Positions 1 to 61,602 of a DNA stretch of 64,000 bases are shown here, in pieces. The position numbers and the translations under genes are program-made. The stretch is from a virus: positions 1 to 64,000 of the IMG/VR virus record IMGVR_UViG_3300048011_000525, one strand, 5' to 3'. The notes below the pieces were generated by a model. That model was not told the DNA's origin. It did no database searches and saw only the letters and a program-made list of their open reading frames with translations. The first letter of the stretch is position 1; the number at the start of each line of letters is the position of its first letter.

Positions 1-395
1 ATACACTATATAGAGCAAGAGTATGCGTATAGGCCCCGCTATAGTGATCAACAGCTAAGGCCCCGCTGTAAGGATAGTAAACAGCACACACCTAAGCATT
101 CTAATAAACGTAGATGAACTATATACTAGCATGATCACACTAGAAACTAGCACTACACGGATAAGCACATACTACCAAGGCAGTATGAGAGTTCCTTGCT
201 ATACTGTATACGAGAATGATCGTATAGTGATCCAAACCACACACAAGCCCACGGCATACACTATATATGAGGGGTTGAAATCTAAGGTGAAAAGTATTTG
301 AACTATGCCTCTCGCGACCTCAGTCAATCTTTTTTGAATACTGTATAAAATTACACTAAACCGTCTTAAACTGTAATAATATTACACGGCGAACC
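1..395. other. non-coding regulatory stretch at window start
   Basis: I see no supported gene here. The sequence is AT-rich with short dispersed repeats: GGCCCCGCT occurs twice near 32-70, TATAGTGATC occurs near 40 and near 225, and ATACTGTATA, the palindromic core of the early promoters, occurs near 210 and again near 338 (ATACTGTATAAAA) without a following gene. The second could be a weak -10 leading into the structured element at 396-475. A control or origin-proximal region is possible but unproved. Confidence 0.5.
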
Positions 396-475
396 TGGCT
401 TTACGGCCGATTCCGCCATGTTGCTAGACACCGTAAACGCATGGTAAAGCCACAGTTCGGCCGCCACCAGCGGCC
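396..475 (+). ncRNA. GC-rich structured element (candidate RNA)
   Basis: TGGCTTTAC (396-404) pairs perfectly with GTAAAGCCA (444-452), CCATG (416-420) pairs with CATGG (440-444) inside it, and GGCCGC/GCGGCC (459-464 and 470-475) forms a second hairpin with loop CACCA. CGGCCGA at 404-410 could also pair with TCGGCCG at 457-463, giving an alternative fold. The element is much richer in GC than its surroundings and has no reading frame. It may be a structured RNA, a terminator-like block or a DNA site; strand is assumed. Confidence 0.4.
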
Positions 476-480
476 TCTAG

Positions 481-747
481 TCACTCGCTATATAGTTCAC
501 ATGACTCTCTTATCACTACACTATATAGAGAGCTGCCCCTATCACTACTATATACTCTATCACTGAGCTTTACTACACTATATAGAGTGTCACTAAGGTT
601 GTCACTATATAGTCTATCACTACCATCACTATATAGTGTCACTATTGGCTTACTGTCACTGTCACTATATACTCTGTCACTAAGGTTGTCACTGTTGAAT
701 TGGTCACTACACTCATTTTTTGGATTTGTCAAATTTTTCTCGTCCAA
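481..747 (-). repeat. CTATATAG repeat tract, open on the minus strand (LYSD repeats)
   Basis: CTATATAG or CTATATAC occurs at 488, 521, 548, 578, 605, 629 and 665, with TCACTA blocks between. All spacings (33, 27, 30, 27, 24, 36) are multiples of three. The minus strand is open for 88 codons, giving repeated (L/V)YS(D/V) units, but its only start is TTG and I see no ribosome-binding site. The plus strand is also open over most of it. It may be an unusual repeat protein or a cluster of protein-binding sites; I favour binding sites slightly. Confidence 0.4.
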
Positions 748-888
748 AATCCAAGTGTTTTTTGGTGGGATAACCTATTGAAATCATTGAGAAAAATTCT
801 CCTTTAAAATCAAGAGGTTAGGTGGGGCCCCGGCTGTAAATCCTAAGTCATTGATCTTATTGGAGTTTTTGGTGTGAACCTGGGGAGG
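748..888. other. non-coding spacer
   Basis: No convincing gene. The minus strand holds an ATG near 784 behind AAAGGAG that opens a 24-codon frame ending in an ATGA overlap with another short frame. The plus strand holds the palindrome GGGGCCCC near 824 and a lone CGGCTG. Low support for coding. Confidence 0.35.
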
Positions 889-973
889 AACTGTTCTTTT
901 GCTCATTCGAACTGTAACCTCTTGATAGTATTGAGGTTTCTAATTCTTTCCTCTCTAGTGCAAAAGAACGGTT
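889..973 (+). ncRNA. nested inverted repeat abutting the first early promoter
   Basis: AACTGTTCTTTTGC (889-902) pairs with GCAAAAGAACGGTT (960-973) over 14 positions, with one U-G wobble that would be a C-A mismatch on the other strand, so the plus-strand RNA is favoured. AACCTC (916-921) pairs with GAGGTT (933-938) inside the loop. The right arm reaches into the -35 box at 972. Either an RNA element whose promoter lies further left, or a DNA cruciform/operator controlling that promoter. Confidence 0.4.
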
Positions 974-1000
974 GACAAGTGGGGAGAAAGACTGTATAAT
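972..1000 (+). promoter_or_regulatory. early promoter P0
   Basis: TTGACA 972-977, 17-bp spacer, consensus TATAAT 995-1000. It lacks the TATACTGTATA palindrome of the later early promoters. No ATG frame follows before the next promoter; only a GTG frame at 1043 or an untranslated RNA could be its product. Confidence 0.75.
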
Positions 1001-1042
1001 AGCAGCCGAGGTTGAGGCATATAGAACCTTCGCCCATCGGGA

Positions 1043-1144
1043 GTGTTTGTCTTCTACTTGGGGAATTCAGTAGCCCTAACCCTCTTTGCCCTTATTGTTC
1101 TTATAGTATACCTTCACTCTAGTCAGAAGTCAACCTCTTTTTAG
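1043..1144 (+). CDS. possible 33-residue membrane peptide (GTG start)
   Basis: A GTG frame downstream of P0 encodes 33 residues with a hydrophobic run (SVALTLFALIVLIVYL) and a short polar tail, a plausible single membrane helix. The purine-rich CGGGA is directly against the GTG, which is too close for a normal ribosome-binding site. The tract could instead be an untranslated RNA. Nothing is recognised by family. Confidence 0.25.
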   Translation: MFVFYLGNSVALTLFALIVLIVYLHSSQKSTSF

Positions 1145-1189
1145 CCAAAATCTTATTTTATTTTTGTGGGTATTTTGGAGAGAAAAAGG

Positions 1190-1218
1190 TTGACAACAGC
1201 CGGAAATGAGGTTATACT
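1190..1218 (+). promoter_or_regulatory. early promoter P1
   Basis: TTGACA 1190-1195, 17-bp spacer carrying CAGCCG, TATACT 1213-1218 inside the palindrome TATACTGTATA, then ACAGTTA. Confidence 0.9.
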
Positions 1219-1251
1219 GTATACAGTTAAACAATAAAGAGAGGGCTTAAT

Positions 1252-1491
1252 ATGTACGGAATGTTCACTAAAGAAGGAAATGAATTGGTCGCAAGGATCG
1301 CAGCAGCCGGTGAGAAACTCGCAGCACAAGATGGCGCAGCCAGTGCCTGGGGTTTTTGCTTGCGAAAGTTGGAGACTCTCAGCTATGGCGAAGGCTTTGG
1401 TGAGGCCACTGACACTGATGTGAGAGAGCGAGTCTACGGTGATGTGGTTGCAGCCGCAGATGACACTTGCGATTTTTATCTAGCTCATTGA
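1252..1491 (+). CDS. early protein of unknown function, 79 aa
   Basis: Starts at ATG 1252 behind AGAGAGGGC, the shared early ribosome-binding site, and follows promoter P1 directly. The 79-residue product is mildly acidic, Ala-rich (residues 17-30) and has two cysteines; I recognise no family or catalytic motif. It ends just before promoter P2, so it is probably a single-gene transcription unit. CAGCCG occurs twice in it (1304, 1451). Likely an early host-takeover protein by position only. Confidence 0.75.
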   Translation: MYGMFTKEGNELVARIAAAGEKLAAQDGAASAWGFCLRKLETLSYGEGFGEATDTDVRERVYGDVVAAADDTCDFYLAH

Positions 1492-1502
1492 GCAGAAAAA
1501 GG

Positions 1503-1531
1503 TTGACAGCAGCCGGATTAGATGGTATACT
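1503..1531 (+). promoter_or_regulatory. early promoter P2
   Basis: TTGACA 1503-1508, 17-bp spacer containing AGCAGCCG, TATACT 1526-1531 followed by GTATATAACAGTTA. Confidence 0.9.
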
Positions 1532-1570
1532 GTATATAACAGTTAGGGCAATATGTGGAGGGCACAGCCG

Positions 1571-1912
1571 ATGAATTTTGTAATTTCAACTCAAGTATTA
1601 GAGAACTATGGCGCTCATTGTGAGGACGGCAAGTTCAGCAGCCAGAACCATTATTGGAAGATGAAGGGCGGCATGGACTATCTGGTCAAGGACCTGGACC
1701 GTGTGCAAGATGCGGTGGCGTTCGTAGCAGCCGCGTTTTCGGACAACAGCCTGGGGTATAAAGAGTTCCCCATCGAGTGGCAGACCGAAGAGGAATGGAT
1801 TGCTAAACTGCCGGACGATGCAGACTATCGTGACTTCCTCAAAGAGCAAGTTTGGGTGGTTAGCCCTAAGACGGGGCGAAAGCACACCAAAGGTTATCCG
1901 GAGGAGTTTTAA
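1571..1912 (+). CDS. early protein of unknown function, 113 aa
   Basis: The start is set at ATG 1571 because GGAGGGCA lies 7-8 nt upstream; the in-frame ATG at 1553 has no such site and would place the RBS inside the gene. The 113-residue product begins MNFVISTQVLENYG, is soluble and rich in aromatic and charged residues, and matches the small hypothetical proteins common in T4-like marine phages. No motif is recognised. The next gene starts 1 nt after its stop, so the two are co-translated. Confidence 0.75.
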   Translation: MNFVISTQVLENYGAHCEDGKFSSQNHYWKMKGGMDYLVKDLDRVQDAVAFVAAAFSDNSLGYKEFPIEWQTEEEWIAKLPDDADYRDFLKEQVWVVSPKTGRKHTKGYPEEF

Positions 1913-1913
1913 T

Positions 1914-2090
1914 ATGAATACCTGTTCACACTGTAAGTCAGAGGTTGAGAACAACGCTCTTCGTTGTCCTTACTGCCTAGAGAATCCATATGATAATTTC
2001 GCATTTGAAACTGGTGGAACCTTTTCAACCATACTGGAATGGATACTCGGAACAGCCGTGGTATTGGTTATCCTGGCTTGGATATTTTGA
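1914..2090 (+). CDS. small zinc-ribbon membrane protein, 58 aa
   Basis: ATG 1914 lies 6-7 nt after GGAGGAG, one nucleotide past the preceding stop. Residues 4-7 (CSHC) and 18-21 (CPYC) form a CxxC-x10-CxxC zinc-ribbon pair, and the C-terminal 20 or so residues are a hydrophobic helix (ILGTAVVLVILAWIF). The protein would sit in the inner membrane with a short zinc-binding domain facing the cytoplasm. Function unknown. An in-frame ATG at 1800 is rejected because it lies inside the preceding gene. Confidence 0.7.
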   Translation: MNTCSHCKSEVENNALRCPYCLENPYDNFAFETGGTFSTILEWILGTAVVLVILAWIF

Positions 2091-2101
2091 GCAAAAAGAG
2101 G

Positions 2102-2130
2102 TTGACATCTCCTTAAAAGATGCTATTATA
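2102..2130 (+). promoter_or_regulatory. early promoter P3
   Basis: TTGACA 2102-2107 and TATTAT 2124-2129 (16 bp), or ATTATA with 17 bp. It belongs to a variant with P5: ...GCTATTATATAAGAGTAAGTTA replaces the usual TATACTGTATATAACAG. Confidence 0.85.
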
Positions 2131-2163
2131 TAAGAGTAAGTTAAACAAAGCGAGGGCAATAAG

Positions 2164-2373
2164 ATGGCAAATTCAAGAGACGTAGCACTAGAGTTGGTAG
2201 ACAACGGTTTGGTAACAGCCGAGGCGATGCTGACTATGTGCCTAAAGTATATGTCAACAGACGATGTTGAGGATATGCTTGACTGTAATGAGTTGAGCGA
2301 ACGGTTTATGGAAGACGATGACGGGCAGCCGACTTGGGAACAAGAGTGGGCAGACTTTGGGGAGGAATACTAA
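2164..2373 (+). CDS. acidic early protein, 69 aa
   Basis: Follows promoter P3 with GCGAGGGCA as ribosome-binding site. The 69-residue product is strongly acidic (DDVEDMLD, EDDDGQP, EQEWADFGEEY), typical of small phage inhibitors or DNA mimics, though nothing proves that role. It ends 1 nt before the next start, so translation is coupled. Confidence 0.7.
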   Translation: MANSRDVALELVDNGLVTAEAMLTMCLKYMSTDDVEDMLDCNELSERFMEDDDGQPTWEQEWADFGEEY

Positions 2374-2374
2374 G

Positions 2375-2965
2375 ATGCCAAATTGGTGCAATAACAATAT
2401 CACGATTCAGGGATCAACTGAAACTATCAAAACACTTTGGGAAGAGGCTACAGCCGAAGATGGTGGACTGCTATCAGCAATGGTTCCTATGCCCAAGGCT
2501 CTAGAAGGAACTACATCACCTACACCACAAGAAGGTGCCAGCAACTACGAAGGTGAACAGCCGATAGTAGATGGCTACGACAATTGGTATGATTGGTCGG
2601 TGGCCCGATGGGGAACCAAGTGGGATGTATCCACAGAAGGACTAGAGTTTACGGACAACGGAGACGGCACAGCCTCGATCAGTGGTTGGTTCGACAGTGC
2701 ATGGGCTCCACCACTTACTGCATACGAAACATTCTGCGAAAGCATGGACGGTGTCTACATTGAAGCGAGTTATCACGAAGGTGGTATGGACTTCGGTGGC
2801 TTCTGGGATAGCGAGACCGGTGAAGAGCATATGGACGGCATCCAAGAGACTTGGGAACAGTATAAAGACAACCTCGACGATGCTCCTAGTCTGTTCAAAC
2901 GCATAGACGAAGAATACGGTCTATCCGATCAATACGCTGAATGGGAAGAAATGGAAATGGAATAA
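2375..2965 (+). CDS. Api92-like ferredoxin-fold phage protein (DUF1281-like), 196 aa
   Basis: The start is ATG 2375, behind GGGGAGGAA and one base after the upstream stop; an earlier in-frame ATG lies inside the upstream gene. The N-terminus MPNWCNNNITIQGS followed by LSAMVPMPKAL near residues 34-44 is the signature I associate with the Api92-like/DUF1281 family of phage and mobile-element proteins. The middle is Trp- and Tyr-rich (YDNWYDWSVARWGTKWD). The family's function is not established. The C-terminus is acidic. Confidence 0.75.
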   Translation: MPNWCNNNITIQGSTETIKTLWEEATAEDGGLLSAMVPMPKALEGTTSPTPQEGASNYEGEQPIVDGYDNWYDWSVARWGTKWDVSTEGLEFTDNGDGTASISGWFDSAWAPPLTAYETFCESMDGVYIEASYHEGGMDFGGFWDSETGEEHMDGIQETWEQYKDNLDDAPSLFKRIDEEYGLSDQYAEWEEMEME

Positions 2966-2971
2966 AAGAGG

Positions 2972-3000
2972 TTGACAAGGATGTCTTCCTATGCTATAGT
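2972..3000 (+). promoter_or_regulatory. early promoter P4
   Basis: TTGACA 2972-2977, 17-bp spacer, TATAGT 2995-3000. The palindromic extension is degenerate here. Confidence 0.85.
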
Positions 3001-3032
3001 ATAAACACAATAAGAGATTAGGAGGGCATCCA

Positions 3033-3314
3033 ATGTCAACAGATTTAAGAAACGTTCCAGACTGTGTAGCACAGAACGAATTGACTCAGACACGCTTTTG
3101 GGGTGGCAAGGATCGATTGACTTGCATACAGATCACTCAACGCAAACCCAAGTATGATCCAGACAACGGCGGAGCAATGTTTAACCATATACAGTTGACC
3201 AAGCATCAAGCTCGTATGTTGGCAACAGAATTGATGTTGTTTGCAGAGGGCCGCGAAGTAGAAGAGTTGGCTGAGTTGGATGATGCAACATTTGGTGAAG
3301 AGGAGCCAGCGTAA
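3033..3314 (+). CDS. early protein of unknown function, 93 aa
   Basis: Preceded by AGGAGGGCAT, the only early RBS that matches all eight bases of the complement of the hairpin loops at 5256, 7912 and 8001. The 93-residue product has a basic N-terminal half and an acidic tail (EVEELAELDDATFGEEEPA). No family recognised. Its stop overlaps the next start (TAATG), so the two are coupled. Confidence 0.7.
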   Translation: MSTDLRNVPDCVAQNELTQTRFWGGKDRLTCIQITQRKPKYDPDNGGAMFNHIQLTKHQARMLATELMLFAEGREVEELAELDDATFGEEEPA

Positions 3315-3514
3315 TGAGACGATCCTATCGTATATACGGAATCAAGGACGGTGGCAAGGAAGAGTTTGTCACTTCAGTATCCGCAGCAGCCGACGGCAAA
3401 GCTGCACACCAGGCAATGAAGCTGCAAGGCTACTTCGATCGCATCGTTTGTCGTGATGTGCTAGGTGGCTTGCGTTTTGAATATAATTTAAAAACTGGTA
3501 GAAAATTGGCATAA
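3314..3514 (+). CDS. small basic early protein, 66 aa
   Basis: Starts in a TAATG overlap with the preceding gene. The 66-residue product is basic, begins MRRSYRIYGIKDGGKEEF and contains an Ala-rich stretch with CAGCCG at 3387. It resembles small single-domain beta-strand/helix phage proteins but no family is recognised. Promoter P5 begins a few bases after its stop. Confidence 0.65.
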   Translation: MRRSYRIYGIKDGGKEEFVTSVSAAADGKAAHQAMKLQGYFDRIVCRDVLGGLRFEYNLKTGRKLA

Positions 3515-3520
3515 AAGAGG

Positions 3521-3549
3521 TTGACAACTGAGCACTTCGGTGCTATTAT
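3521..3549 (+). promoter_or_regulatory. early promoter P5
   Basis: TTGACA 3521-3526, 17-bp spacer, TATTAT 3544-3549, same variant as P3. Confidence 0.85.
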
Positions 3550-3586
3550 ATAAGAGTAAGTTAACAAAGCTAGAAGGGCAAACAAA

Positions 3587-4051
3587 ATGGCAACACGTTC
3601 AAACATCGCATACAAAACAGCAGAAGGCAAAATCCGCAGCGTCTACAGCCACTGGGATGGCTATGTAGCAAACAATGGTCGCATCCTAGAGGAGAGCTAC
3701 CAGGACCAAGCAAAGATTGAAGCATTGGTTGCACTAGGTAGCATCAGCAGCCTGGGAGCAGAACTAGGCGAGCAGCAGGACTTCAACGATCGCAGCACAC
3801 AACAAGACGATTGGACACTAGCATATCATCGTGACCGTGGTGAAGATTTGGTTGTTAGCGAATACGACGACATTCCAAGTTGGATCAACGACATGGAGGA
3901 ATACGCTTACCTGTGGAACGGCAAGGAATGGCTTGTAAACGATCACGGTGCTAAGGACGCAAACGGCTTTCCTGTGTTCGACTTGCTGTCAACTGTAGTG
4001 CCAATCGAACTAGCACGTATGGAGCAGCGCATCGCAGCAGCCGCAAATTAA
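3587..4051 (+). CDS. conserved phage protein with MATRSNIA start, 154 aa
   Basis: Starts behind AGAAGGGCAAACAAA. The N-terminus MATRSNIAYKTAEGKIRSV and the following VYSHWDGYVANNG are the hallmark of a widespread phage family of unknown function whose members begin MATRS.IA and carry a (Y/C)HWDGY motif. Length is normal for the family. Residues 95-125 are aromatic and acidic. It is transcribed alone from P5. The C-terminal codons carry CAGCCG (4038). Confidence 0.75.
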   Translation: MATRSNIAYKTAEGKIRSVYSHWDGYVANNGRILEESYQDQAKIEALVALGSISSLGAELGEQQDFNDRSTQQDDWTLAYHRDRGEDLVVSEYDDIPSWINDMEEYAYLWNGKEWLVNDHGAKDANGFPVFDLLSTVVPIELARMEQRIAAAAN

Positions 4052-4075
4052 TTTGGTATTTTGGCAAATTAGGGG

Positions 4076-4104
4076 TTGACAGCAGCCCCTAATGAGGCTA
4101 TACT
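4076..4104 (+). promoter_or_regulatory. early promoter P6
   Basis: TTGACA 4076-4081, 17-bp spacer, TATACT 4099-4104, then ATATATAACAGTTAGG. Preceded by AGGGG, which with CCCCT at 4086-4090 can form a small inverted repeat around the -35 box. Confidence 0.9.
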
Positions 4105-4135
4105 ATATATAACAGTTAGGAAAGAGGGCAAACAA

Positions 4136-4324
4136 ATGAAACAGACAATTGGTTTTATCTTAATCGTAGTAGGAATGATGGTAGCAGCCGGTAGTGCTGG
4201 GGACTGTGACGGACAGTGTATGGAATACGCTAACAGCCTGAGCGAGATGCTTATGATCGCAGCAGCCGGAATTTTTGCTATGGTAGTAGGTGCGTTGGCA
4301 GTTTTTTCTGCACAAAATGATTAA
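4136..4324 (+). CDS. two-helix membrane protein, 62 aa
   Basis: ATG 4136 follows AAGAGGGCAAACAA; upstream in-frame ATGs lie inside the promoter. The product has two hydrophobic helices (about residues 5-19 and 39-58) joined by a loop with DCDGQC, suggesting a periplasmic disulfide hairpin or a metal-binding turn. Small inner-membrane early proteins of this kind often block superinfection or disturb host transport, but that is inference. CAGCCG occurs at 4185 and 4263 in different codon contexts. Confidence 0.7.
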   Translation: MKQTIGFILIVVGMMVAAGSAGDCDGQCMEYANSLSEMLMIAAAGIFAMVVGALAVFSAQND

Positions 4325-4331
4325 TTAGGGG

Positions 4332-4360
4332 TTGACAAACTCCGCAGTAGATGGTATACT
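4332..4360 (+). promoter_or_regulatory. early promoter P7
   Basis: TTGACA 4332-4337, 17-bp spacer, TATACT 4355-4360 in TATACTGTATA, then TAACAGTTA. Likely also supplies the tRNA cluster and the RNA at 5201-5289, since no closer promoter is visible. Confidence 0.9.
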
Positions 4361-4395
4361 GTATATAACAGTTAAACAATTGAGAGGCAAATAAC

Positions 4396-4713
4396 ATGAC
4401 ACAGAAAACTTTTGAAGTAGCAGGTACATCAACACTAAATGGCGTGACTAAGGTAAGGTTCGCAAATGACTATGTAGGTCGTTTCAAGATCCTTGTTAAG
4501 AACGGACACGAGAACATTGAGTTGATGGAACTAGGTGAGAAGATGACCAAGGCAGACATCTGCAAGGTATTGATTGCTCATCCAAACTTCCAAGGTGAAG
4601 ATCAGCAGAGTGCGATCGCAGAATTTGTTGTACGAAATGTGAAGGCGCAGCCGGAGCAGACAGAAACAACAAAGGTGGAAGCAGCCGAAGACGTCGAAGC
4701 AGAATTGGCGTAG
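4396..4713 (+). CDS. early protein of unknown function, 105 aa
   Basis: Starts 8 nt after GAGAGGCAA, a slightly diverged early RBS. The 105-residue product opens with a beta-rich segment (TFEVAGTSTLNGVTKVRF) and ends in an acidic low-complexity tail (EQTETTKVEAAEDVEAELA). No family recognised. It heads a transcript that probably runs through the 42-residue membrane peptide and the tRNAs. Confidence 0.7.
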   Translation: MTQKTFEVAGTSTLNGVTKVRFANDYVGRFKILVKNGHENIELMELGEKMTKADICKVLIAHPNFQGEDQQSAIAEFVVRNVKAQPEQTETTKVEAAEDVEAELA

Positions 4714-4816
4714 GCACTTCCACAACCAGGGCGTCCTTGTGTAGCAGCCGGGACACTCCAATAGAGAGCGGTGGGGCTCATTGGACACATTATTGCAGCA
4801 GCCAGAGGATCGGGCA

Positions 4817-4945
4817 TTGGAACTAAATGAAATCATCGCAGTCGTAGGGATTGCATTCACATCATTCATGGCGGGGTATCTACTTTCAGAGATGCATTCA
4901 TTCCGCAAGTATATCAAAGAAAATTGTTTGAAGGAGACTTCATAA
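4817..4945 (+). CDS. small membrane-anchored protein, 42 aa (TTG start)
   Basis: A TTG at 4817 lies 7 nt after AGAGGA and opens a 42-residue frame: a hydrophobic helix (about residues 5-23, IIAVVGIAFTSFMAGYLL) followed by a basic tail. Single-helix membrane peptides are repeated in this region (4136, 6496, 9833), which supports reality. The preceding 100 bases (4714-4816) show no gene, only CAGCCG at 4745. The downstream in-frame ATG at 4868 would cut the helix. Confidence 0.5.
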   Translation: MELNEIIAVVGIAFTSFMAGYLLSEMHSFRKYIKENCLKETS

Positions 4946-4952
4946 AGACTTA

Positions 4953-5029
4953 GGGCCTTTAGCTCAATTGGTTAGAGCACCGGACTCATAATCCGTAGGT
5001 TCCGAGTTCGAGTCTCGGAGGGCCCACCA
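4953..5029 (+). tRNA. tRNA with CAU anticodon, probably tRNA-Ile2
   Basis: Complete cloverleaf of 77 nt with encoded CCA; acceptor GGGCCTT/AGGGCCC, anticodon CAT at 4987-4989 in loop CTCATAA, T-loop TTCGAGT. CAU can be elongator Met or, after lysidine modification, Ile for AUA codons. The C4-G69 and C5-G68 pairs seen here are features of tRNA-Ile2 that TilS recognises, not of elongator tRNA-Met, so Ile2 is favoured. Confidence 0.9.
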
Positions 5030-5034
5030 AGTAA

Positions 5035-5111
5035 CTGCCCTTAGCTCAGCAGGATAGAGCAAGAGATTTCTAATCTCTAGGTCGGGGGTTCGAATCCCTC
5101 AGGGCAGGCCA
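5035..5111 (+). tRNA. tRNA-Arg (UCU)
   Basis: Acceptor CTGCCCT/AGGGCAG, anticodon stem AGAGA/TCTCT, anticodon TCT at 5069-5071, T-loop TTCGAAT, encoded CCA at 5109-5111. Reads AGA codons, which are frequent in the window's AT-rich genes. Confidence 0.93.
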
Positions 5112-5115
5112 ATTA

Positions 5116-5199
5116 GCCTCCGTGGTGGAATAGGTAGACACAAGGGACTTAAAATCCCTCGCTTATGGCGTCCCGGTTCGAGTCCGGGCGGAGGCACCA
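5116..5199 (+). tRNA. tRNA-Leu (UAA)
   Basis: Class II tRNA of 84 nt with a long variable arm (CGCTTATGGCG). Acceptor GCCTCCG/CGGAGGC, anticodon stem AGGGA/TCCCT, anticodon TAA at 5150-5152, encoded CCA. Reads UUA codons. Confidence 0.93.
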
Positions 5200-5200
5200 A

Positions 5201-5289
5201 GTTTAGGGAGTTGAGCAGCCGAACGAGCCGCCCTCACTCAAAGGTACCGCAGCGTATGCCCTCACGCTAAGGAACGCTCCTCCCTAAGC
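5201..5289 (+). ncRNA. candidate anti-RBS RNA downstream of the tRNAs
   Basis: GTTTAGGGAG (5201-5210) pairs with CTCCCTAAGC (5280-5289) over 10 bp, with one U-G wobble that would be C-A on the minus strand, so the plus strand is the RNA. Inside, TTGAG/CTCAA (5211-5215, 5237-5241) closes a loop holding GCCCTC (5230-5235), and AGCGT/ACGCT (5251-5255, 5264-5268) closes an eight-base loop ATGCCCTC (5256-5263). ATGCCCTC is the reverse complement of the early RBS GAGGGCAT. The RNA would be cut from the tRNA transcript. Small hairpins GCCC-TTT-GGGC (5288-5298) and GGTT-CCAG-AACC (5308-5319) follow. Confidence 0.55.
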
Positions 5290-5334
5290 CCTTTGGGCAG
5301 CAGCCGAGGTTCCAGAACCATCAGGCATCAGTTT

Positions 5335-5364
5335 ATTATAACACAGAGCAGCCGGGGTTGTCAA
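5335..5364 (-). promoter_or_regulatory. leftward promoter antisense to the RNA and tRNAs
   Basis: On the minus strand TTGACA (5359-5364) is preceded by AGG and followed after 18 bp by TATAAT (5335-5340), matching the early promoter class. It points left across 5201-5289 and the tRNAs and diverges from P8. No gene follows in that direction, so it would make an antisense RNA whose loops read GAGGGCAT. It may instead be an operator copy. Confidence 0.5.
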
Positions 5365-5408
5365 CCTAAAAATAACCAAAATAAAATTAAAAAATGGCAA
5401 ATAAAAGG

Positions 5409-5437
5409 TTGACAGTAACAGCAAACGAGGCTATACT
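5409..5437 (+). promoter_or_regulatory. early promoter P8
   Basis: TTGACA 5409-5414, 17-bp spacer, TATACT 5432-5437 in TATACTGTATA, then CAGTTA. Confidence 0.9.
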
Positions 5438-5473
5438 GTATACAGTTAAACAATAAAGCAAAGAGGGCAAACT

Positions 5474-5812
5474 ATGCTTACAATTACTAAAACTGGTTTT
5501 GAACAGAACGACGACTACACTAGCACTTTTTACGGTGTAGAAGGCGCGGTGACGCTTGCTGGCGACAGCTTATGGGGTGACACTGCGGGGCGAGTTGTTA
5601 ACGTTGAAGGCATTACTGTAACAGAAGAACAGTACGGTGAAGAGGCTGACGACAAGTACATGCACGTGACAGTGACACACGACAGCACGTGGGACATTTA
5701 CACTGACACTGCGTTTGCTGTAGCAATTAGCGAAGCGTTGGGCATGGACATTGACTTTACGGAGCAAGGCATGCAAGACGACGGACACGCGAGCATGGAA
5801 GTGTACAGTTAA
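5474..5812 (+). CDS. acidic early protein of unknown function, 112 aa
   Basis: Starts behind AGAGGGCAAACT. The 112-residue product is acidic and Thr/Asp-rich, with many GACAC/ACTGAC codon runs that give the DNA a repetitive look. No family motif. It lacks the CAGCCG motif found in most neighbours. Transcribed alone from P8. Confidence 0.7.
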   Translation: MLTITKTGFEQNDDYTSTFYGVEGAVTLAGDSLWGDTAGRVVNVEGITVTEEQYGEEADDKYMHVTVTHDSTWDIYTDTAFAVAISEALGMDIDFTEQGMQDDGHASMEVYS

Positions 5813-5831
5813 AAAAGTGGCAAAAAAGAGG

Positions 5832-5860
5832 TTGACAACGGCCTCTTTGTTTGCTATACT
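5832..5860 (+). promoter_or_regulatory. early promoter P9
   Basis: TTGACA 5832-5837, 17-bp spacer, TATACT 5855-5860 in TATACTGTATA, then TAACAGTTA. GAGG before and CCTC inside the spacer (5842) form a small inverted repeat around the -35. Confidence 0.9.
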
Positions 5861-5900
5861 GTATATAACAGTTAGGGCAATAAGTAGAAGGAACTACGCA

Positions 5901-6095
5901 ATGATCAAAGTATTCAACAGCGCATACCGTGAGTCGATCGAGCAGCCGAAGATGATTCCACTGGATGAAGTCAACATCGTAACACAGAACATCCACAACG
6001 GCGCTCCTTACATCTTGTTCGAGCACAAAGACTATCCGCTGGGCGCACTGAGCGCAACCTTCGACGGTGAGTATTGGGCTTGTGACCTTGATTGA
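5901..6095 (+). CDS. early protein of unknown function, 64 aa
   Basis: ATG 5901 follows GAAGGAACTACGCA; GGGCAA lies further up in the leader. The in-frame upstream ATG at 5751 is inside the previous gene and is rejected. The 64-residue product (MIKVFNSAYRESIEQPK...) ends with GEYWACDLD and is soluble; no family recognised. Confidence 0.65.
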   Translation: MIKVFNSAYRESIEQPKMIPLDEVNIVTQNIHNGAPYILFEHKDYPLGALSATFDGEYWACDLD

Positions 6096-6127
6096 TGATC
6101 CGTGTGATGATTGGTACCCATTAGGGG

Positions 6128-6156
6128 TTGACAAACCAAAGAAGTGACTGTATACT
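6128..6156 (+). promoter_or_regulatory. early promoter P10
   Basis: TTGACA 6128-6133, 17-bp spacer, TATACT 6151-6156 followed by GTAAGTATAACAATTAGG. Confidence 0.9.
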
Positions 6157-6187
6157 GTAAGTATAACAATTAGGAAAGAGGGCAAAC

Positions 6188-6457
6188 ATGGAAAAATCAA
6201 TTTACGAAGTAGGTGAACAGCACAAACAACTAGCAGCCGTTGGTAGACGCATGATGGACATGAGCGAGTATGCCAATTGCAAGGGCATGAAGGATGAAGA
6301 CTTCAAATTGCTCAACGACATGAGTCACGTAGGCAACCTGCTTACCAAATTGGGCAATGCGTTTGGTCCTAAGCTGGACAAAGACTTTACAGCCGAGGAT
6401 ATGGATTTAATTGCTCGTTTTATGAAAAAAGAGATTGACATTCCGCAGATGCGGTAG
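6188..6457 (+). CDS. early helical protein of unknown function, 89 aa
   Basis: Starts directly after GAGGGCAAAC. The 89-residue product looks all-helical and Met-rich, with basic and acidic patches in alternation; no family recognised. Its last seven codons contain the -35 box of promoter P11 (ATT GAC ATT), so coding and promoter sequence overlap. Confidence 0.7.
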   Translation: MEKSIYEVGEQHKQLAAVGRRMMDMSEYANCKGMKDEDFKLLNDMSHVGNLLTKLGNAFGPKLDKDFTAEDMDLIARFMKKEIDIPQMR

Positions 6458-6463
6458 TATACT
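6435..6463 (+). promoter_or_regulatory. early promoter P11, inside a gene end
   Basis: TTGACA 6435-6440 lies in the 3' end of the preceding gene; 17-bp spacer, TATACT 6458-6463 starts one base after its stop, then GTATATAACAATTAGGG. Confidence 0.88.
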
Positions 6464-6495
6464 GTATATAACAATTAGGGCAAAGGGCAAAACAA

Positions 6496-6633
6496 ATGAT
6501 TAAAACACTAGGTTGGTTAACAGTAATTGGAATAGGTCTTTACACAGGGATCCTACAGGCCATGTTGATATTTGCTGGTGCTGCGGTTATTTGGGTTGGT
6601 ACTTTGCTCGCTAGTTTGGGAGGCGCGATATGA
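6496..6633 (+). CDS. two-helix membrane peptide, 45 aa
   Basis: ATG 6496 follows AAAGGGCAAAACAA from promoter P11. The 45-residue product is almost wholly hydrophobic with two likely helices (about residues 6-20 and 22-40) and one Lys near the start, so it should insert in the inner membrane. Its stop overlaps the next start as ATGA (6630-6633), which supports translation. Function unknown; small early membrane proteins are a repeated theme here. Confidence 0.65.
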   Translation: MIKTLGWLTVIGIGLYTGILQAMLIFAGAAVIWVGTLLASLGGAI

Positions 6634-6863
6634 AATGGGTTTTGATAGCAAGCGTTCTTAACTGGCAACCAGTATATGACGATCAGAAGACCTGTCAACT
6701 AGCAGCCGAAGAGCTCAAGAAGGTATATTACCAAGAAGTCGCTGCGTGTATTCCAAAGCCGACTAACACAGCCGGTGAGAATGAGAATGTGGACCGCATG
6801 TTCGAACAGTTCATGAATATGGTAAAAGAACTACAAAAAGAAGTTGACAACGGCAACAACTGA
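6630..6863 (+). CDS. small early protein with hydrophobic N-terminus, 77 aa
   Basis: Begins in an ATGA overlap with the membrane peptide. The first ten residues (MKWVLIASVL) are hydrophobic, then comes NWQPVYDDQKTCQLAAEEL, a pattern seen in many small phage proteins, with two cysteines (C22 and C40) that could pair in the periplasm. The C-terminal half is charged and helical. The last codons hold the -35 of promoter P12. Possibly secreted or membrane-tethered; function unknown. Confidence 0.65.
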   Translation: MKWVLIASVLNWQPVYDDQKTCQLAAEELKKVYYQEVAACIPKPTNTAGENENVDRMFEQFMNMVKELQKEVDNGNN

Positions 6864-6872
6864 ACGTATACT
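6844..6872 (+). promoter_or_regulatory. early promoter P12, inside a gene end
   Basis: TTGACA 6844-6849 lies within the last codons of the preceding gene; 17-bp spacer spans its stop; TATACT 6867-6872, then ACATATATAAATTAAC. Confidence 0.88.
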
Positions 6873-6907
6873 ACATATATAAATTAACTTAACGCTGTGA
6901 GGGCACA

Positions 6908-7912
6908 ATGACAAACATTACAATCAAAGAAGGCACATACAAAATCCGTGGTAAAGACGTAGACCTATCAGGTATGACTTTTCCACTAGTAGAAGAATTC
7001 AAAGTAGGAGCACGAGGTGGCTACGTAACAGTAGACGGTTCAGCAGTTGCTGGCTTTCCACAGCGTAACATCAAGATCATGTGCGCAAGTGCAGATGACT
7101 ATGCCCAAACTGATGCTGCAATTAATACAGCAGCAGTAGAGGAGAGTGACGAAGAAGTTATCGAACGTATCCGTGAACGCTTTGACATGTTGAAGGACAT
7201 GACCAAAGCAGTCAAGAAAGGTGCTGTGCGAGCTATGATCGTTTCAGGACCTCCAGGTGTTGGTAAGTCGCATGGTGTAGAAGAAGTACTAGAGCGTTAC
7301 GACACACTAGAACATCTAGGTGGTTCCTCTAAGTATACAATTGTTAAAGGTGCAATGAGCCCAATCGGACTCTACTGTAAGCTGTTCAACTACGCAGACA
7401 AAGACAACGTTATCGTGTTCGATGACTGTGATGCGATCTTCGAAGAGCCACTTGCACTTAATATTTTAAAAGCTGCTCTAGACAGCAAGAAGAAACGTAC
7501 TATTCACTGGAACACAGACAGTTTCAAGTTGCGTAATGAAGGTGTGCCGGATTCATTCGAGTTCAAAGGTTCAGCGATCTTTATTACCAACCTTGACTTC
7601 CATGACGTAAAGAGCAAGAAGATACGCTCGCACTTGGAAGCACTAGAGTCACGTTGTCACTATATGGATTTAACTATCCACTCTGAGCGCGACAAGATGC
7701 TCAGAATTGCACAAGTCATCAAGGACGGAATGCTAGATAGTTATAAGGTGTCCGATGAAGTCAAAGAAGAAATCATTGATTTCGTGGACATTAATAAGAA
7801 GCGACTAAGAGAACTGTCATTGCGTACAGTACTTAAGGTAGCCGACTTAGCAGTTGCATTTCCAGATCGTTGGGAAGCAATGGCTGAGAACACTGTTATG
7901 AAACATTCTTAA
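6908..7912 (+). CDS. AAA+ ATPase, 334 aa
   Basis: Starts behind GTGAGGGCACA. Walker A GPPGVGKS (114-121) and Walker B VIVFDDCD (168-175) are intact, and ITNLDF near residue 225 fits sensor 1, so this is an active P-loop ATPase of the single-domain AAA family carried by many T4-like marine phages. Its substrate is not known; the N-terminal 80 residues carry no recognised domain. It is the longest early gene and almost alone in lacking CAGCCG. Its stop codon lies in the loop of the first of three hairpins that form its 3' UTR. Confidence 0.85.
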   Translation: MTNITIKEGTYKIRGKDVDLSGMTFPLVEEFKVGARGGYVTVDGSAVAGFPQRNIKIMCASADDYAQTDAAINTAAVEESDEEVIERIRERFDMLKDMTKAVKKGAVRAMIVSGPPGVGKSHGVEEVLERYDTLEHLGGSSKYTIVKGAMSPIGLYCKLFNYADKDNVIVFDDCDAIFEEPLALNILKAALDSKKKRTIHWNTDSFKLRNEGVPDSFEFKGSAIFITNLDFHDVKSKKIRSHLEALESRCHYMDLTIHSERDKMLRIAQVIKDGMLDSYKVSDEVKEEIIDFVDINKKRLRELSLRTVLKVADLAVAFPDRWEAMAENTVMKHS

Positions 7913-8034
7913 TGCCCTCAAGAATCATAACAGTTCAAGTGTTAAGCAGGCACCCCTCATAGCCCTCACGCTCTGCTAACACATGCGCCCGGAGTAGGAC
8001 ATGCCCTCGTCCAATACACTCCGGGCTTTTTTTT
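7905..8034 (+). ncRNA. 3' UTR with three ATGCCCTC-type hairpins ending in a terminator
   Basis: Hairpin 1: ATTCTT/AAGAAT (7905-7910, 7920-7925), loop AATGCCCTC, spanning the stop codon of the ATPase gene. Hairpin 2: GTGTTAAGCAG (7939-7949, one bulged A) with CTGCTAACAC (7973-7982), loop holding GCCCTC (7962-7967). Hairpin 3: GCCCGGAGT/ACTCCGGGC (7987-7995, 8018-8026) with inner GGAC/GTCC (7997-8000, 8009-8012) and loop ATGCCCTC (8001-8008), then eight T. The stems are unrelated in sequence but the loops are the same and complement the early RBS GAGGGCA. Probably a 3'-UTR-derived regulatory RNA. Confidence 0.6.
7987..8034 (+). terminator. intrinsic terminator of the ATPase transcript
   Basis: Perfect 9-bp GC-rich stem GCCCGGAGT/ACTCCGGGC followed by T8 (8027-8034). 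The stem carries a second hairpin, GGAC-ATGCCCTC-GTCC, within it. Confidence 0.85.
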
Positions 8035-8055
8035 GATCTTTTTTTGATTTAGGGG

Positions 8056-8082
8056 TTGACACAGCCGCCATTTGATTATAAG
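8056..8082 (+). promoter_or_regulatory. early promoter P13
   Basis: TTGACA 8056-8061; -10 is either TATAAG 8077-8082 (15 bp) or a displaced box in AGCTGTATATAACAG. The spacer holds CAGCCG. The least regular of the set. Confidence 0.7.
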
Positions 8083-8120
8083 CTGTATATAACAGTTAAC
8101 AAAGCAAGAGGGCAAAAGCA

Positions 8121-8513
8121 ATGACAACTGTAATTAAAGAGAACTTCCGCAAGTGTTCAGTAGAGGGATGCAACAAGCTGGGCCAGCACATGGGCAAGTA
8201 TCGCAAAGACGGATCACCTGTACGCAGAGCCAAGTGTGCCAAACATCATTCAATTGACTACGGCATGAAAGGTTGGGACTACAAGCAACACCGCAAAGAC
8301 TACTGTGAGAACCGTGACGGACGCTTGGGCTTCACCTGCACATCAACTATTGTAGATCCAGAGTGGCAACTAGACGCAGATCACATCAACGGCAACCCAA
8401 GCGACAATCGTCCTGAGAACATACAGACACTGTGCAAGTGCTGTCACCCAATCAAAACTAAAATGGAAGGTGATTACCTAACAGCCGGTCGCAAAGCATA
8501 CGGGGTAAAATAA
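8121..8513 (+). CDS. HNH endonuclease-like protein, 130 aa
   Basis: Starts behind AAGAGGGCAAAAGCA. It has an N-terminal zinc-binding cluster (C12, C17, C39, H42), and a C-terminal LDADHINGNPSDNRPEN with CKCCH (residues 85-109), the beta-beta-alpha HNH nuclease motif with H88 as likely general base. It is a free-standing early gene under its own promoter, so it may be a homing nuclease that has been tamed, or a host-DNA nuclease. Substrate unknown. Confidence 0.8.
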   Translation: MTTVIKENFRKCSVEGCNKLGQHMGKYRKDGSPVRRAKCAKHHSIDYGMKGWDYKQHRKDYCENRDGRLGFTCTSTIVDPEWQLDADHINGNPSDNRPENIQTLCKCCHPIKTKMEGDYLTAGRKAYGVK

Positions 8514-8537
8514 TTACGCAATTTGGTAAAAAAGAGG

Positions 8538-8566
8538 TTGACAACCGGCCTCTTTTTTTATATACT
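8538..8566 (+). promoter_or_regulatory. early promoter P14
   Basis: TTGACA 8538-8543, 17-bp spacer, TATACT 8561-8566 in TATACTGTATA, then TAACAGTTA. AAAGAGG upstream and CCTCTTT in the spacer form a 7-bp inverted repeat around the -35. Confidence 0.9.
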
Positions 8567-8599
8567 GTATATAACAGTTAAGCAAATGAGGGCAAACAA

Positions 8600-8971
8600 A
8601 TGCTAGTAACTAAACACACCGAGGAAAGCACACACAAGTTTTTTGCAATAGCAGACATTGAAGCTCGTGCTCGTGCAGCGTACAATGCAAACAAGCAGCT
8701 ATTTGAAAGTGCTGCACACCAGCAGCGTGTAGAACTTGTAGACACTATACTACGCAACATGCTCGCGGGCTACACTACAGCATATCAAACTGCTCGCGCT
8801 GCTACTAAACGCAAAGCAGCACACACAGAAGTCAAGTACGACCGCGTAATACAATACACAAGCAACAAGCACAAGCAGCTACGTGCAGCAGCCGTTGAGC
8901 AACTAGCAGCACTTGGACTTGACTTAGTATACAAACCCAAAACAAACAGCTATAGCGTACACGTACTATAG
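8600..8971 (+). CDS. early helical protein of unknown function, 123 aa
   Basis: Starts behind TGAGGGCAAACAA. The 123-residue product is Ala-rich, basic and predicted all-helical with possible coiled coil (residues 18-110). No family motif. The net positive charge would suit nucleic-acid or membrane-surface binding, which is inference only. Confidence 0.7.
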   Translation: MLVTKHTEESTHKFFAIADIEARARAAYNANKQLFESAAHQQRVELVDTILRNMLAGYTTAYQTARAATKRKAAHTEVKYDRVIQYTSNKHKQLRAAAVEQLAALGLDLVYKPKTNSYSVHVL

Positions 8972-9010
8972 CAGCCGCGGCCTGTGGATAACTTTTTGGT
9001 AAAAAAGAGG

Positions 9011-9039
9011 TTGACAAACACACACTCAGATCATATACT
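9011..9039 (+). promoter_or_regulatory. early promoter P15
   Basis: TTGACA 9011-9016, 17-bp spacer, TATACT 9034-9039, then GTATGTATAAGTTAAAG. Confidence 0.9.
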
Positions 9040-9071
9040 GTATGTATAAGTTAAAGCAAAGAGGGCACAAT

Positions 9072-9332
9072 ATGAAACGCAACATTAGAGCAGCATACAC
9101 AAAACTAAAAGCACTTGGTGCTCCCGTGTATGAAGGTGGTTGGAATGGTGAAGACACATTCCGAATCTCAGGAGAGGACAACGGCGACACCCTTTGGGCA
9201 GACTACTATGAAGAGTTTGTGCCCAGCACATGGGAGTTTGGTGTTAATCCTATTATCACTAAGGTACTGGACAAGCATGGCTTGTTTGCAGAATGGTGCA
9301 ATGCTGGTGTGCTTAATGTATATGAGAATTGA
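9072..9332 (+). CDS. early protein of unknown function, 86 aa
   Basis: ATG 9072 follows GAGGGCACAAT; the in-frame ATG at 9042 lies in the leader upstream of the RBS and is rejected. The product begins MKRNIRAAYTKLKALG and continues with an acidic, Trp-rich region (WNGEDTF, WADYYEEFVPSTWEFG). Small hypotheticals of this type occur in T4-like marine phages. No motif. Confidence 0.7.
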   Translation: MKRNIRAAYTKLKALGAPVYEGGWNGEDTFRISGEDNGDTLWADYYEEFVPSTWEFGVNPIITKVLDKHGLFAEWCNAGVLNVYEN

Positions 9333-9343
9333 GCAAATAAAGG

Positions 9344-9371
9344 TTGACACACAGCACACAGATGCTATACT
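9344..9371 (+). promoter_or_regulatory. early promoter P16
   Basis: TTGACA 9344-9349, 16-bp spacer, TATACT 9366-9371, then GTATATATAAATTAACG. Confidence 0.88.
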
Positions 9372-9403
9372 GTATATATAAATTAACGTAGAGGGCTAAA
9401 CAA

Positions 9404-22012: not shown

Positions 22013-23749
22013 TTAAAAATATACTTTGAAACCAGTTTTCCAGTTACGCCCTAATTGACTATAACCGTTTGGTCTCTGGTATTCCTTATTACTAATGTTA
22101 TATATCCCTGCAAACACTTCTAAGTTATTTTTTTTATAATTTAATTCTGTATTATAAATTACTATAGGATCTATATTCATTGTTTCAAATGTTATACTAT
22201 TAATATCTTTGTGCTTGCCATAGTAGTCTGCGTCAAAAGAATACACAATGTTGTCTACTATTGTTGCTAGTTTTAAATTATTAGTAACTTTAGGACGTCT
22301 TAGTTTTTGATTACCATTTGATGTCTTAGCATCTATAACAGCAACATTATTTTCTATAAAGAACTGTCCTATTTCATAGTTAAGTGTATTTTCAATACCT
22401 TTAGTGTAACTTGTATTGTTGTCGTTAATATATGTGCCATTATATACTATAGCATTTTGTTCTTGTGTTACAAACAAAGCCGTGTTTGAAAAGTTATTTT
22501 CGTAACCTATTTCATAACTTATAGTATCTTCTTCTAATAGATTAGGGTTACCTGTAAAGCCGTAATTGTCCTGTCCGTACATTTCGTATAGTGTTGGAAT
22601 TCTATATCCTGTTGATACACTAGCTCGCACACCGTTATTAAAGATACCTATTCTTCCTGTATTCTTTTCTCCGAATTCGTTTATGATATCATGTCTTATA
22701 CCATATGCTAGTGCAGTGTTGCCGATTATAGTATTTGAATTTATAAAAATACCTTTAGTTGTTCTCTTCTTGTCTACACTGCTTGTATAAGGAAACGCAC
22801 TATTAATGTTTATTAAAAAGTCTGCACTAACCTTTTCAACTTCAGTGCCAATAATTACATCAGTATTATTATAATTTAATTTATGCGATCCGTAGAAGGT
22901 GTCTACTGTACTATCATAGTCGCCTTCTAATTTAAAATCTTTTGTGTACACTCTATTATGATTAGAATTATTATACGTTAGTCTACTTTTTTCATTTGTA
23001 TAATCTAACTGTATGTTTTGCCAATTCCACTTGCCTGTATAATTTAATGTATCTGTTGTTGAGTCTAGTGCAGAATAATTTGTTTCGTTTATATAATTAA
23101 CCCGTATGTTATTATGATCGTCACTGTGTACTAAATTTAAATTTATGTTATCGTAATCATGGGGGTCTTTTTCTTCGCCATTTGGATAAACACTTATGCC
23201 GTCAGTTTGAAAAGACTCGATACTAACAGTATAGTTTAAGGTTGGAGATATCTGTCCTGATAGTTGTGCTTCTGCTGTAAGTAAATTATTACTACCCACA
23301 GTTGAGGAAATATACGATCTACCTGTAATATCAGATACTAAGTTAATTACACCTCCAGATGCATTAGCACCGTATGAACTGCTCATAGGACCTTTGTATA
23401 GTTCTATATTACTAATACCTGTAAAGTTATGTTGACCAATATCGTCAGTGCCAGTAGGGCTACTTTGATCTTTGATTGAAATGCCATTGAGTGTTATAAG
23501 GCTCTGATCGCTATCTGCTCCTCTAATATACAAAGAGCTCATTTGTCCTTTTGGTCCACTAGATAATATATCCACACTAGACACTTCGTTGAGTTCGTCT
23601 GTTTCTATAATTTCATAAGAGTACGTCGAGTTTGCAAAATACGACGGTGTCCTATCGGCATATACATAAATTACTAGCTCTGTAGCAAATGTTGAGGTCG
23701 CAAAAAAAGCCGCGAAAAACGCGACTAATAGTTTATTATAATTATTCAT
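22013..23749 (-). CDS. TonB-dependent outer-membrane receptor (BtuB-like), 578 aa
   Basis: A signal peptide (about residues 1-22, cleavage after TFA) is followed by ELVIYVYADR, like the TonB box of BtuB, a plug domain (residues about 40-140) with SSLYIRGADSDQSLITLNGI, IELYKGPMSSSYGANASGGVINL, and a beta-barrel with alternating strands ending in the aromatic KTGFKVYF needed for BAM recognition. The length is close to BtuB (614). Cobalamin, heme or siderophore uptake are the usual roles; the ligand is not predictable. It has its own promoter and a likely leaderless mRNA. Such a gene is most unusual in a phage; it may alter uptake or replace a phage receptor. Confidence 0.88.
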   Translation of the reverse strand: MNNYNKLLVAFFAAFFATSTFATELVIYVYADRTPSYFANSTYSYEIIETDELNEVSSVDILSSGPKGQMSSLYIRGADSDQSLITLNGISIKDQSSPTGTDDIGQHNFTGISNIELYKGPMSSSYGANASGGVINLVSDITGRSYISSTVGSNNLLTAEAQLSGQISPTLNYTVSIESFQTDGISVYPNGEEKDPHDYDNINLNLVHSDDHNNIRVNYINETNYSALDSTTDTLNYTGKWNWQNIQLDYTNEKSRLTYNNSNHNRVYTKDFKLEGDYDSTVDTFYGSHKLNYNNTDVIIGTEVEKVSADFLININSAFPYTSSVDKKRTTKGIFINSNTIIGNTALAYGIRHDIINEFGEKNTGRIGIFNNGVRASVSTGYRIPTLYEMYGQDNYGFTGNPNLLEEDTISYEIGYENNFSNTALFVTQEQNAIVYNGTYINDNNTSYTKGIENTLNYEIGQFFIENNVAVIDAKTSNGNQKLRRPKVTNNLKLATIVDNIVYSFDADYYGKHKDINSITFETMNIDPIVIYNTELNYKKNNLEVFAGIYNISNKEYQRPNGYSQLGRNWKTGFKVYF

Positions 23750-38098: not shown

Positions 38099-38869
38099 TT
38101 AATCCCTTCTTTCAATGTCTTCTTCATAACACTTTCCCCGTTGTATTTCAAGGATGTGTGCATTTTCTTTACCTGGATTGCTTGCTTTGTGCCAAACTTC
38201 TTTAGCAATGTTATAAGGTCTACTTTCAGGTTCTAATAGTATTGAACTTTGTACACTGTTCCATTCAGTGTCCATTTTTACTTTACCTTCTAGTACGGCC
38301 CATTGTTCTGAACGTTTAAAATGTTTTTGATCACTTAAACTTTTGCCAGGATAAATTACAAGTTCTTTTACTTTGTAACCTTTCTCAGGCTTGTCATCTA
38401 GCACACGCCAATAGCCCCAGTCACGTTCTGTCTTTTGCGTTTTCCACTCATCAAGTATCCAACTGCTACTGTTGGCTTTGTTACTGCCGCCTACGCCAAA
38501 TGCAAACTCGCACCAACGATAGCCACCGTATACTTCATATTCAGGAGTTGTTGTATTGGTTCGATCTCCGCCGTTTGCAAAGATCATAATGTCGTCACCT
38601 GAAATCATTGTTGCTACTTGGCCAATTGCTTTGTTTGCTGTGTTGTCTAGATCGTCAAATCCAATAACCTGATCAACTACTTCTAGTTCTTTTATAATAG
38701 CACAACGTTCTTCAAAAGACATAAATGGTCTGCCTTTTTTGCGTGTTAACCAGTCGTCGCTATTCACGCCAACAATAAGTTTGTTGCCGAGTTTTTTTGC
38801 TGCTTTAAAATAGGCAATATGCCCTGAATGGAGAGGATCAAACCCTCCGGTAACTAACACTACTTTCAT
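38099..38869 (-). CDS. fusion: nucleotidyltransferase plus cupin phosphomannose-isomerase-like domain, 256 aa, predicted leaderless
   Basis: Residues 1-120 show GGFDPLHSGH and GVNSDDW of the RfaE/TagD-type nucleotidyltransferase. Residues 150-250 form a type II mannose-6-phosphate isomerase cupin (DWGYWRVLDD, KHFKRSEQW, EVWHKASNPG). Each part is normal in cells, but joined it would take sugar phosphate to an activated sugar. CATAAATA ends 5 nt before ATG. Substrate unknown; heptose or mannose phosphate are candidates. Confidence 0.72.
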   Translation of the reverse strand: MKVVLVTGGFDPLHSGHIAYFKAAKKLGNKLIVGVNSDDWLTRKKGRPFMSFEERCAIIKELEVVDQVIGFDDLDNTANKAIGQVATMISGDDIMIFANGGDRTNTTTPEYEVYGGYRWCEFAFGVGGSNKANSSSWILDEWKTQKTERDWGYWRVLDDKPEKGYKVKELVIYPGKSLSDQKHFKRSEQWAVLEGKVKMDTEWNSVQSSILLEPESRPYNIAKEVWHKASNPGKENAHILEIQRGKCYEEDIERRD

Positions 38870-61164: not shown

Positions 61165-61602
61165 ATGAACAAGATAGTTTGCAGTGGTGCTCTCTTTTAC
61201 GCACTCAATACAAAACGTTTTTTATTTTTACACAGAGCTGGCGGCAAGACTTCTGGCACTTGGGGACTTGTAGGTGGCGGCAACGAAGAAGGTGAAACAC
61301 CTTTTGAAGGACTTACACGTGAAATACAAGAAGAAGTAGGAAAACTACCTAAGTTTGTAAAAACAATACCTTTAGAAACGTTTGTATCAAATGATGAAAA
61401 GTTTAACTTTCACACATACCTTGTTGTAATAAAAGAAGAATTTTTACCTACACTAAATCATGAACACAACGGGTATGCTTGGACTACATTTGGTAATTGG
61501 CCTAAAACCCTACACCAGGGATTGCGCAACACACTACAAAATAAAACTAATCTTACAAAGTTAGAAACTGTATTTCAAGTAATAGACTTACTTGACAATT
61601 AA
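61165..61602 (+). CDS. Nudix hydrolase, 145 aa
   Basis: A full Nudix box, GGGNEEGETPFEGLTREIQEEVG (about 37-59), with catalytic REIQEEVG. It may clean up nucleotide sugars, ADP-heptose-related by-products or mutagenic nucleotides. It precedes the heptose genes but is separated from them by a promoter, so the link is loose. Confidence 0.82.
   Translation: MNKIVCSGALFYALNTKRFLFLHRAGGKTSGTWGLVGGGNEEGETPFEGLTREIQEEVGKLPKFVKTIPLETFVSNDEKFNFHTYLVVIKEEFLPTLNHEHNGYAWTTFGNWPKTLHQGLRNTLQNKTNLTKLETVFQVIDLLDN

Follow-up and report, generated by a model that had tools for sequence, protein, structure and literature searches.

A strand-specific hexamer dispersed through the putative early region of a T4-like giant phage

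Why does one hexamer, CAGCCG, recur on a single strand throughout one block of a phage genome and hardly anywhere else? The window (the whole stretch of DNA that was analysed, 64,000 bases) comprises bases 1-64000 of a 115,582-base IMG/VR virus record, which is probably incomplete because contigs of some relatives exceed 270 kb. Its tail sheath is ∼42% identical to the sheaths of Pseudomonas phage PA5oct/MIJ3 and Agrobacterium phage Atu_ph07. The phage is contractile-tailed and a relative of giant phages, in a clade of T4-like giant phages.

The early block and its hexamer

An array of ∼17 consensus copies of a sigma-70-type promoter (GGTTGACA-N16/17-TATACT) spans 972..9372 on the plus strand, with starts from 972 to 9344. 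A promoter scan found GGTTGACA early-type arrays restricted to this block; on the plus strand, most of the promoters lead into a small gene, and three tRNAs lie among them. We took 972-9372 as the early block, its expression being presumed from the promoters, and assigned gene starts by our reading of leaders. Within the block, a conserved AAA-type ATPase gene (phrog_1250; 6908..7912, plus strand) has no CAGCCG site and served as the anchor for finding relatives. Pfam scans of 30 window proteins yielded an HNH nuclease match just below the Pfam cut-off (8121-8513), two methyltransferase-like proteins, and one primase-like Toprim protein, none of them tied to CAGCCG.

Other parts of the record have features of their own. 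The phage encodes a TonB-dependent receptor of 578 aa with plug and barrel (22013-23749, minus strand), which to our knowledge is unusual in a phage genome. It also has sugar-nucleotide genes, namely consecutive NUDIX, PfkB-cytidylyltransferase, and NAD-dependent epimerase genes (61165-63578, plus strand) and a cytidylyltransferase/mannose isomerase fusion (38099-38869, minus strand). In record bases 64001-115582, a strong strand bias affects GCCGCC and words like it (27/1, 17/0, and 14/0); they fall on the strand opposite to the mostly minus-strand genes, a preference that is possibly codon-driven.

All 31 plus-strand copies of CAGCCG that the initial annotation had counted in 1003-8977 were found (1003, 1197, 1304, 1451, 1510, 1565, 1728, 2053, 2216, 2326, 2451, 2558, 3387, 4038, 4185, 4263, 4648, 4682, 4745, 5216, 5301, 5349, 5943, 6234, 6390, 6703, 6769, 8062, 8482, 8889, and 8972). 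The reverse word, CGGCTG, had been said to appear about once in this interval; one copy lies just outside, at 831, and none inside, although zero carries little weight alone as only ∼1 is expected. For the other 55 kb about seven copies had been given, and we count 6 CAGCCG and 2 CGGCTG (831 included) in the remainder of the window. The whole record has 38 and 6, of which 7 and 6 are outside the early field (∼106 kb); the opposite-strand copies are at 831, 21219, and four more positions. Plus-strand density is 3.43/kb in the early region versus 0.061 per strand-kb elsewhere. The excess had been put at ∼40 times the base-composition expectation, which is right for the composition of the window, but a first-order Markov expectation (1.46) is fairer and reduces it to 21-fold (Poisson tail 4e-30).

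CAGCCG ranks first of 4,096 hexamers in over-representation in the early region. Its one-mismatch neighbors are present there at 0-4 copies in 17 of 18 cases, the exception being CAGCAG with 21, and AGCAGC and GCAGCC are also high. The base 5′ of CAGCCG is A or G at every one of the 31 sites, 18 of which have the context AGCAGCCG, and the word is in practice RCAGCCG; the region's other CAGC words are likewise often preceded by A or G (41 of 54).

Selection on the hexamer and its distribution among relatives

We considered whether the field is a by-product of composition, codon usage, or a neutral mutational process. Most coding sites are in one frame (Ala/Thr-Ala-Gly/Glu) and the related words AGCAGC and GCAGCC are likewise high, as such a process might produce. 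However, codon and dinucleotide nulls fail to reproduce the counts. Synonymous-codon shuffles of the early genes gave a mean of 5.0 and a maximum of 12 coding sites (2,000 shuffles) versus 21 observed; this null was run with gene 2375-2965 begun one base early, which touched two sites and could not change the result. Dinucleotide shuffles of intergenic DNA gave a mean of 0.33 and a maximum of 3 (1,000 shuffles) versus 10 observed, a 30-fold excess in noncoding DNA, and shuffles of the whole region gave a mean of 1.56 and a maximum of 7 (500 shuffles) versus 31. The near absence of one-mismatch words and the retention of the core while its flanks diverged also argue against a by-product, which we regard as very unlikely. 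These results uphold the initial claims that amino-acid demand is not the cause and that the sites fall in different frames as well as in noncoding DNA: in correct frames, 17 coding sites read (A/G)CA-GCC-G and 4 read CAG-CCG, with the other 10 noncoding. There is good support for a genuine motif under selection.

We fetched 80 related loci through the ATPase gene (6908-7912). Clear CAGCCG enrichment was found only in L011 (24/1 in 9.5 kb) and L009 (10/0 in 5.2 kb), in both of which most of the excess is at the early end of the contig, and mild enrichment in L012 (5/0). Approximately 75 other relatives lack it, but most were found with one anchor gene and many contigs are short, such that failure to find CAGCCG in a short one means little. 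In the ATPase tree, the window, L009, L010, L011, and L013 group in a single supported clade that L012 adjoins. Clade member L010 has zero plus-strand sites in 3.9 kb; CAGCCG was lost or never gained there, and the trait is clade-limited. Enrichment in related phages, which the initial annotation had proposed to check, is thus borne out by two bearers in the nearest clade but not by most of the ∼80 relatives. An assembly artefact is unlikely because three separate contigs carry the field. Further relatives obtained via four other early proteins included no new bearer, and a scan of other viral contigs for TTGACA-CAGCCG yielded no further enriched contig among the matches listed.

The window and L011 are alignable over 5.0 kb and 75.5% identical. 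Ten of 14 alignable sites of the window persist in L011, versus 27.5% of all hexamers (P ∼8e-4), which is near the persistence rate of leader words, and identity in the flanks of shared sites is 74%, the background divergence rate. Sites have also turned over, with seven found only in L011, at nonhomologous positions, and four found only in the window. A small gene of L011 (1090-1317) has five sites, each coding Thr-Ala. The 10 shared sites mostly show a G-to-A switch in the base before the core, and only 3 have kept it (P ∼0.003); overall, that base is G at 21 and A at 10 sites in the window, and A at 22 and G at 2 in L011. The switch looks as if the recognition preference has shifted and the word is following a changing reader. 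Alternatively, it may reflect a general shift in base preference.

Location of sites and candidate readers

The CAGCCG field begins with the first early promoter, ahead of which there is no plus-strand site in the window (1-970; 3.3 expected) or in L011 (1-826; 2.6 expected). Sites coincide with the early promoter array, are oriented in the direction of transcription, and in several cases adjoin a −35 or −10 element. The first early promoter (972..1008, plus strand) is TTGACA-N17-TATAAT followed by AGCAGCCG, and site 1003 is 2 nt after the −10 and straddles the predicted start; the layout is repeated at L011 826-862 (site 857) and at the L009 promoter at 24 (site 55). The initial annotation had placed sites 1197, 1510, and 8062 in promoter spacers, and they do lie 0-1 base after a −35 TTGACA. 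On the plus strand, CAGCCG is one base past TTGACA at 1190..1202 (the L011 counterpart, 1028, has no gap) and at 1503..1515 (common to L011 1321), and immediately past it at 8056..8067, ∼25 nt beyond a terminator U-tract. Past the same terminator after the ATPase gene, L009 (3321), L011 (7596), and L013 (1126) have a site ∼10-12 nt on, and in L012 site 1023 is directly after a −35. A minus-strand promoter, TTGACA-N18-TATAAT (5335..5364), contains the complement of site 5349 within its spacer and is kept in L009 and L011. Of the 31 sites, 21 are inside genes and only 1565 is between a leader motif and a start codon.

Upstream of the promoters, the lone opposite-strand copy (831..836, minus strand) is within a ∼25-base stretch identical in L011 (position 685). 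Separately, positions 771-935, just upstream of the first early promoter, contain repeats like TAAGTCATTGATCTTATTGG / TAACCTCTTGAT in both orientations, and similar words occur in L018, L022, L031, L034, L035, L066, and L069; the repeats are iteron-like and perhaps represent an origin or operator. Several CACTATATAG-like words are also upstream of the early block, at 486-715.

The main rival to a signal carried by transcription is a polar repressor or roadblock bound to DNA. A phage protein would bind double-stranded RCAGCCG across the early block, occlude promoters, stop RNA polymerase from one side, and shut off early transcription. The sites directly after −35 elements, 2 nt after −10 elements, and just past the conserved terminator, in the window and in relatives, are what such a protein could use, and near-absent one-mismatch words suit recognition by a protein. 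A site across the predicted start is moreover awkward for a purely RNA-borne signal, because it needs upstream transcription, and suits a DNA-level reader better. On the other hand, DNA-binding proteins usually act independently of orientation, which makes the fixed orientation of CAGCCG awkward for an ordinary one. Most sites are inside genes, there is no helical phasing between them, and no candidate protein was found. We consider the repressor or roadblock unlikely, though it deserves to be taken seriously. Three measures failed to separate RNA from DNA models: helical phasing, predicted accessibility in RNA (sites are no more accessible than with shuffled flanks), and a density gradient, which is significant in L011 (P 0.003) and not in the window (P 0.07).

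Polar signals of other kinds are improbable. Chi sites are short, asymmetric, over-represented, and direction-dependent, EcoP15I recognizes the asymmetric hexamer CAGCAG, and its sites in phage T7 are strongly strand-biased. CAGCCG resembles both in being a short, asymmetric, one-sided word, in the latter case also a hexamer in a phage, and the iteron-like repeats just upstream would suit a signal of genome maintenance (Chi-, KOPS-, or primase-like) as the relatedness of CAGCAG would suit an asymmetric type III or BREX modification site. But Chi is dispersed through whole genomes and over-represented along them, whereas CAGCCG is confined to one ∼8-kb block of early genes and falls to the low density given above elsewhere. 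Restriction by a type III system yields avoidance rather than enrichment, and the single-orientation arrangement by which sites escape type III cleavage, as in T7, does not hold here: the record has 38 forward copies and 6 reverse ones, the latter all outside the early field.

The chances are slimmer still for a small RNA of phage or host with CGGCUGU, for example from ∼831, that would pair with early mRNAs. CCGGCTGT at 831 is in the stretch identical in L011 and absent from comparable regions of several motif-free relatives, and a U opposite position −1 would explain the A or G there. However, the wobble-compatible variants CGGCCG, TAGCCG, CAGTCG, and CAGCTG are not enriched (0, 1, 1, and 0 copies), and the combination expected of small-RNA targets, wobble tolerance with a complement in a stable RNA, was not found. 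Positions 800-935 show no better folding than shuffled sequence and carry repeats that many relatives share, besides tRNA no Rfam family was matched at gathering score, and RNA accessibility gave no signal. We rejected a noncoding RNA at 800-935 for its shuffle-like folding and widespread repeats despite the conservation of CGGCTG at 831 in L011; exact-word scans for this stretch found no homologue except L011's own contig. Mimicry of the 530 loop of 16S rRNA (AGCAGCCGCGG) was also rejected, as CG follows at only 2 of 31 AGCAGCCG sites, most of which have A or G as the next base. Chi-like sites, type III modification, and RNA-RNA pairing thus fit poorly, leaving an RNA- or transcription-coupled signal and a polar DNA-binding signal as possible readings.

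A different word may be involved in pairing with early leaders. A structured stretch 3′ of the ATPase gene (7913-8036, plus strand; fold z −3.3) has three GCCCUC words, two of them in predicted loops, plus a terminator, and is also found at L009 3194-3317, L011 7458-7592, and L012 6955-7108, and in others. GCCCTC recurs in 12 of 12 aligned relatives and 4 of 15 consensus pairs have two-sided changes. GCCCUC is complementary to GAGGGC, a word in the leaders of many early genes, ahead of the start codon (14 copies in the early region and 2 outside it), and the stretch is a candidate small RNA against early leaders. A second structured-looking stretch (5195-5290, plus strand), after the tRNAs and between CAGCCG sites 5216 and 5301, contains GCCCUC twice, one copy being predicted to lie in a hairpin loop.

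A possible polar signal of early transcription

We tentatively favor the view that CAGCCG is a polar signal in early transcription that is recognized in nascent RNA or in the elongation complex. That it is a strand-specific nucleic-acid signal, as first proposed, is supported: the word exceeds every null, is restricted to the promoter array and oriented with transcription (31/0), is in coding and noncoding DNA, has been conserved and gained between relatives, and is carried by three contigs, the window's and two from separate IMG/VR records. In one clade of T4-like giant phages, early transcription units would be studded with RCAGCCG, which a sequence-specific factor of phage or host would recognize either in early RNA as it emerges or on the non-template strand within the elongation complex. 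Its reading would set early transcription, or the fate of early mRNA, apart from later classes through processivity, pausing, protection, or targeted decay. Site 1003, its counterparts in L011 and L009, and the spacer sites would be present in RNA only with read-through from upstream.

Two known systems are informative. In B. subtilis, the NusG-dependent pause hexamer TTNTTT is recognized directionally, on the non-template strand within the elongation complex, and occurs both in genes and, at higher density, in untranslated regions (PMC12288461). CAGCCG is likewise a short directional hexamer in genes and untranslated regions, and polar with transcription in DNA that its promoters predict to be transcribed, as expected of a NusG/RfaH-type signal; it differs in sequence and in forming a clustered phage early field rather than being host genome-wide. 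A search for the NusG family (PF02357) had no match in the three records, which are possibly incomplete, while the control matched 10 of 14 genomes; the search is blind to a host factor. RegB of phage T4 targets GGAG in early mRNA, mainly in translation initiation regions (PMC3014915). Here too a short motif would mark the early mRNA of a T4-like phage, but CAGCCG sits chiefly within genes and promoter spacers rather than in Shine-Dalgarno regions. A RegB search found no match in these possibly incomplete records, with a silent control. A literature search for CAGCCG and phage found no paper, which is weak evidence of absence.

It is possible, if somewhat more doubtful, that a dedicated factor uses a previously undescribed early-class tag, a seven-letter directional word across early units for which proteins were changed where needed. 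As the factor evolved, the first base of such a tag would change in concert at its sites from one lineage to the next. Where a directional word is scattered in this way, as Chi, KOPS, and NusG pause motifs are, it betrays a machinery that recognizes it. The sharpness of CAGCCG, its restriction to a single temporal gene class, and its turnover among near relatives argue for a novel reader of early phage transcription or mRNA.
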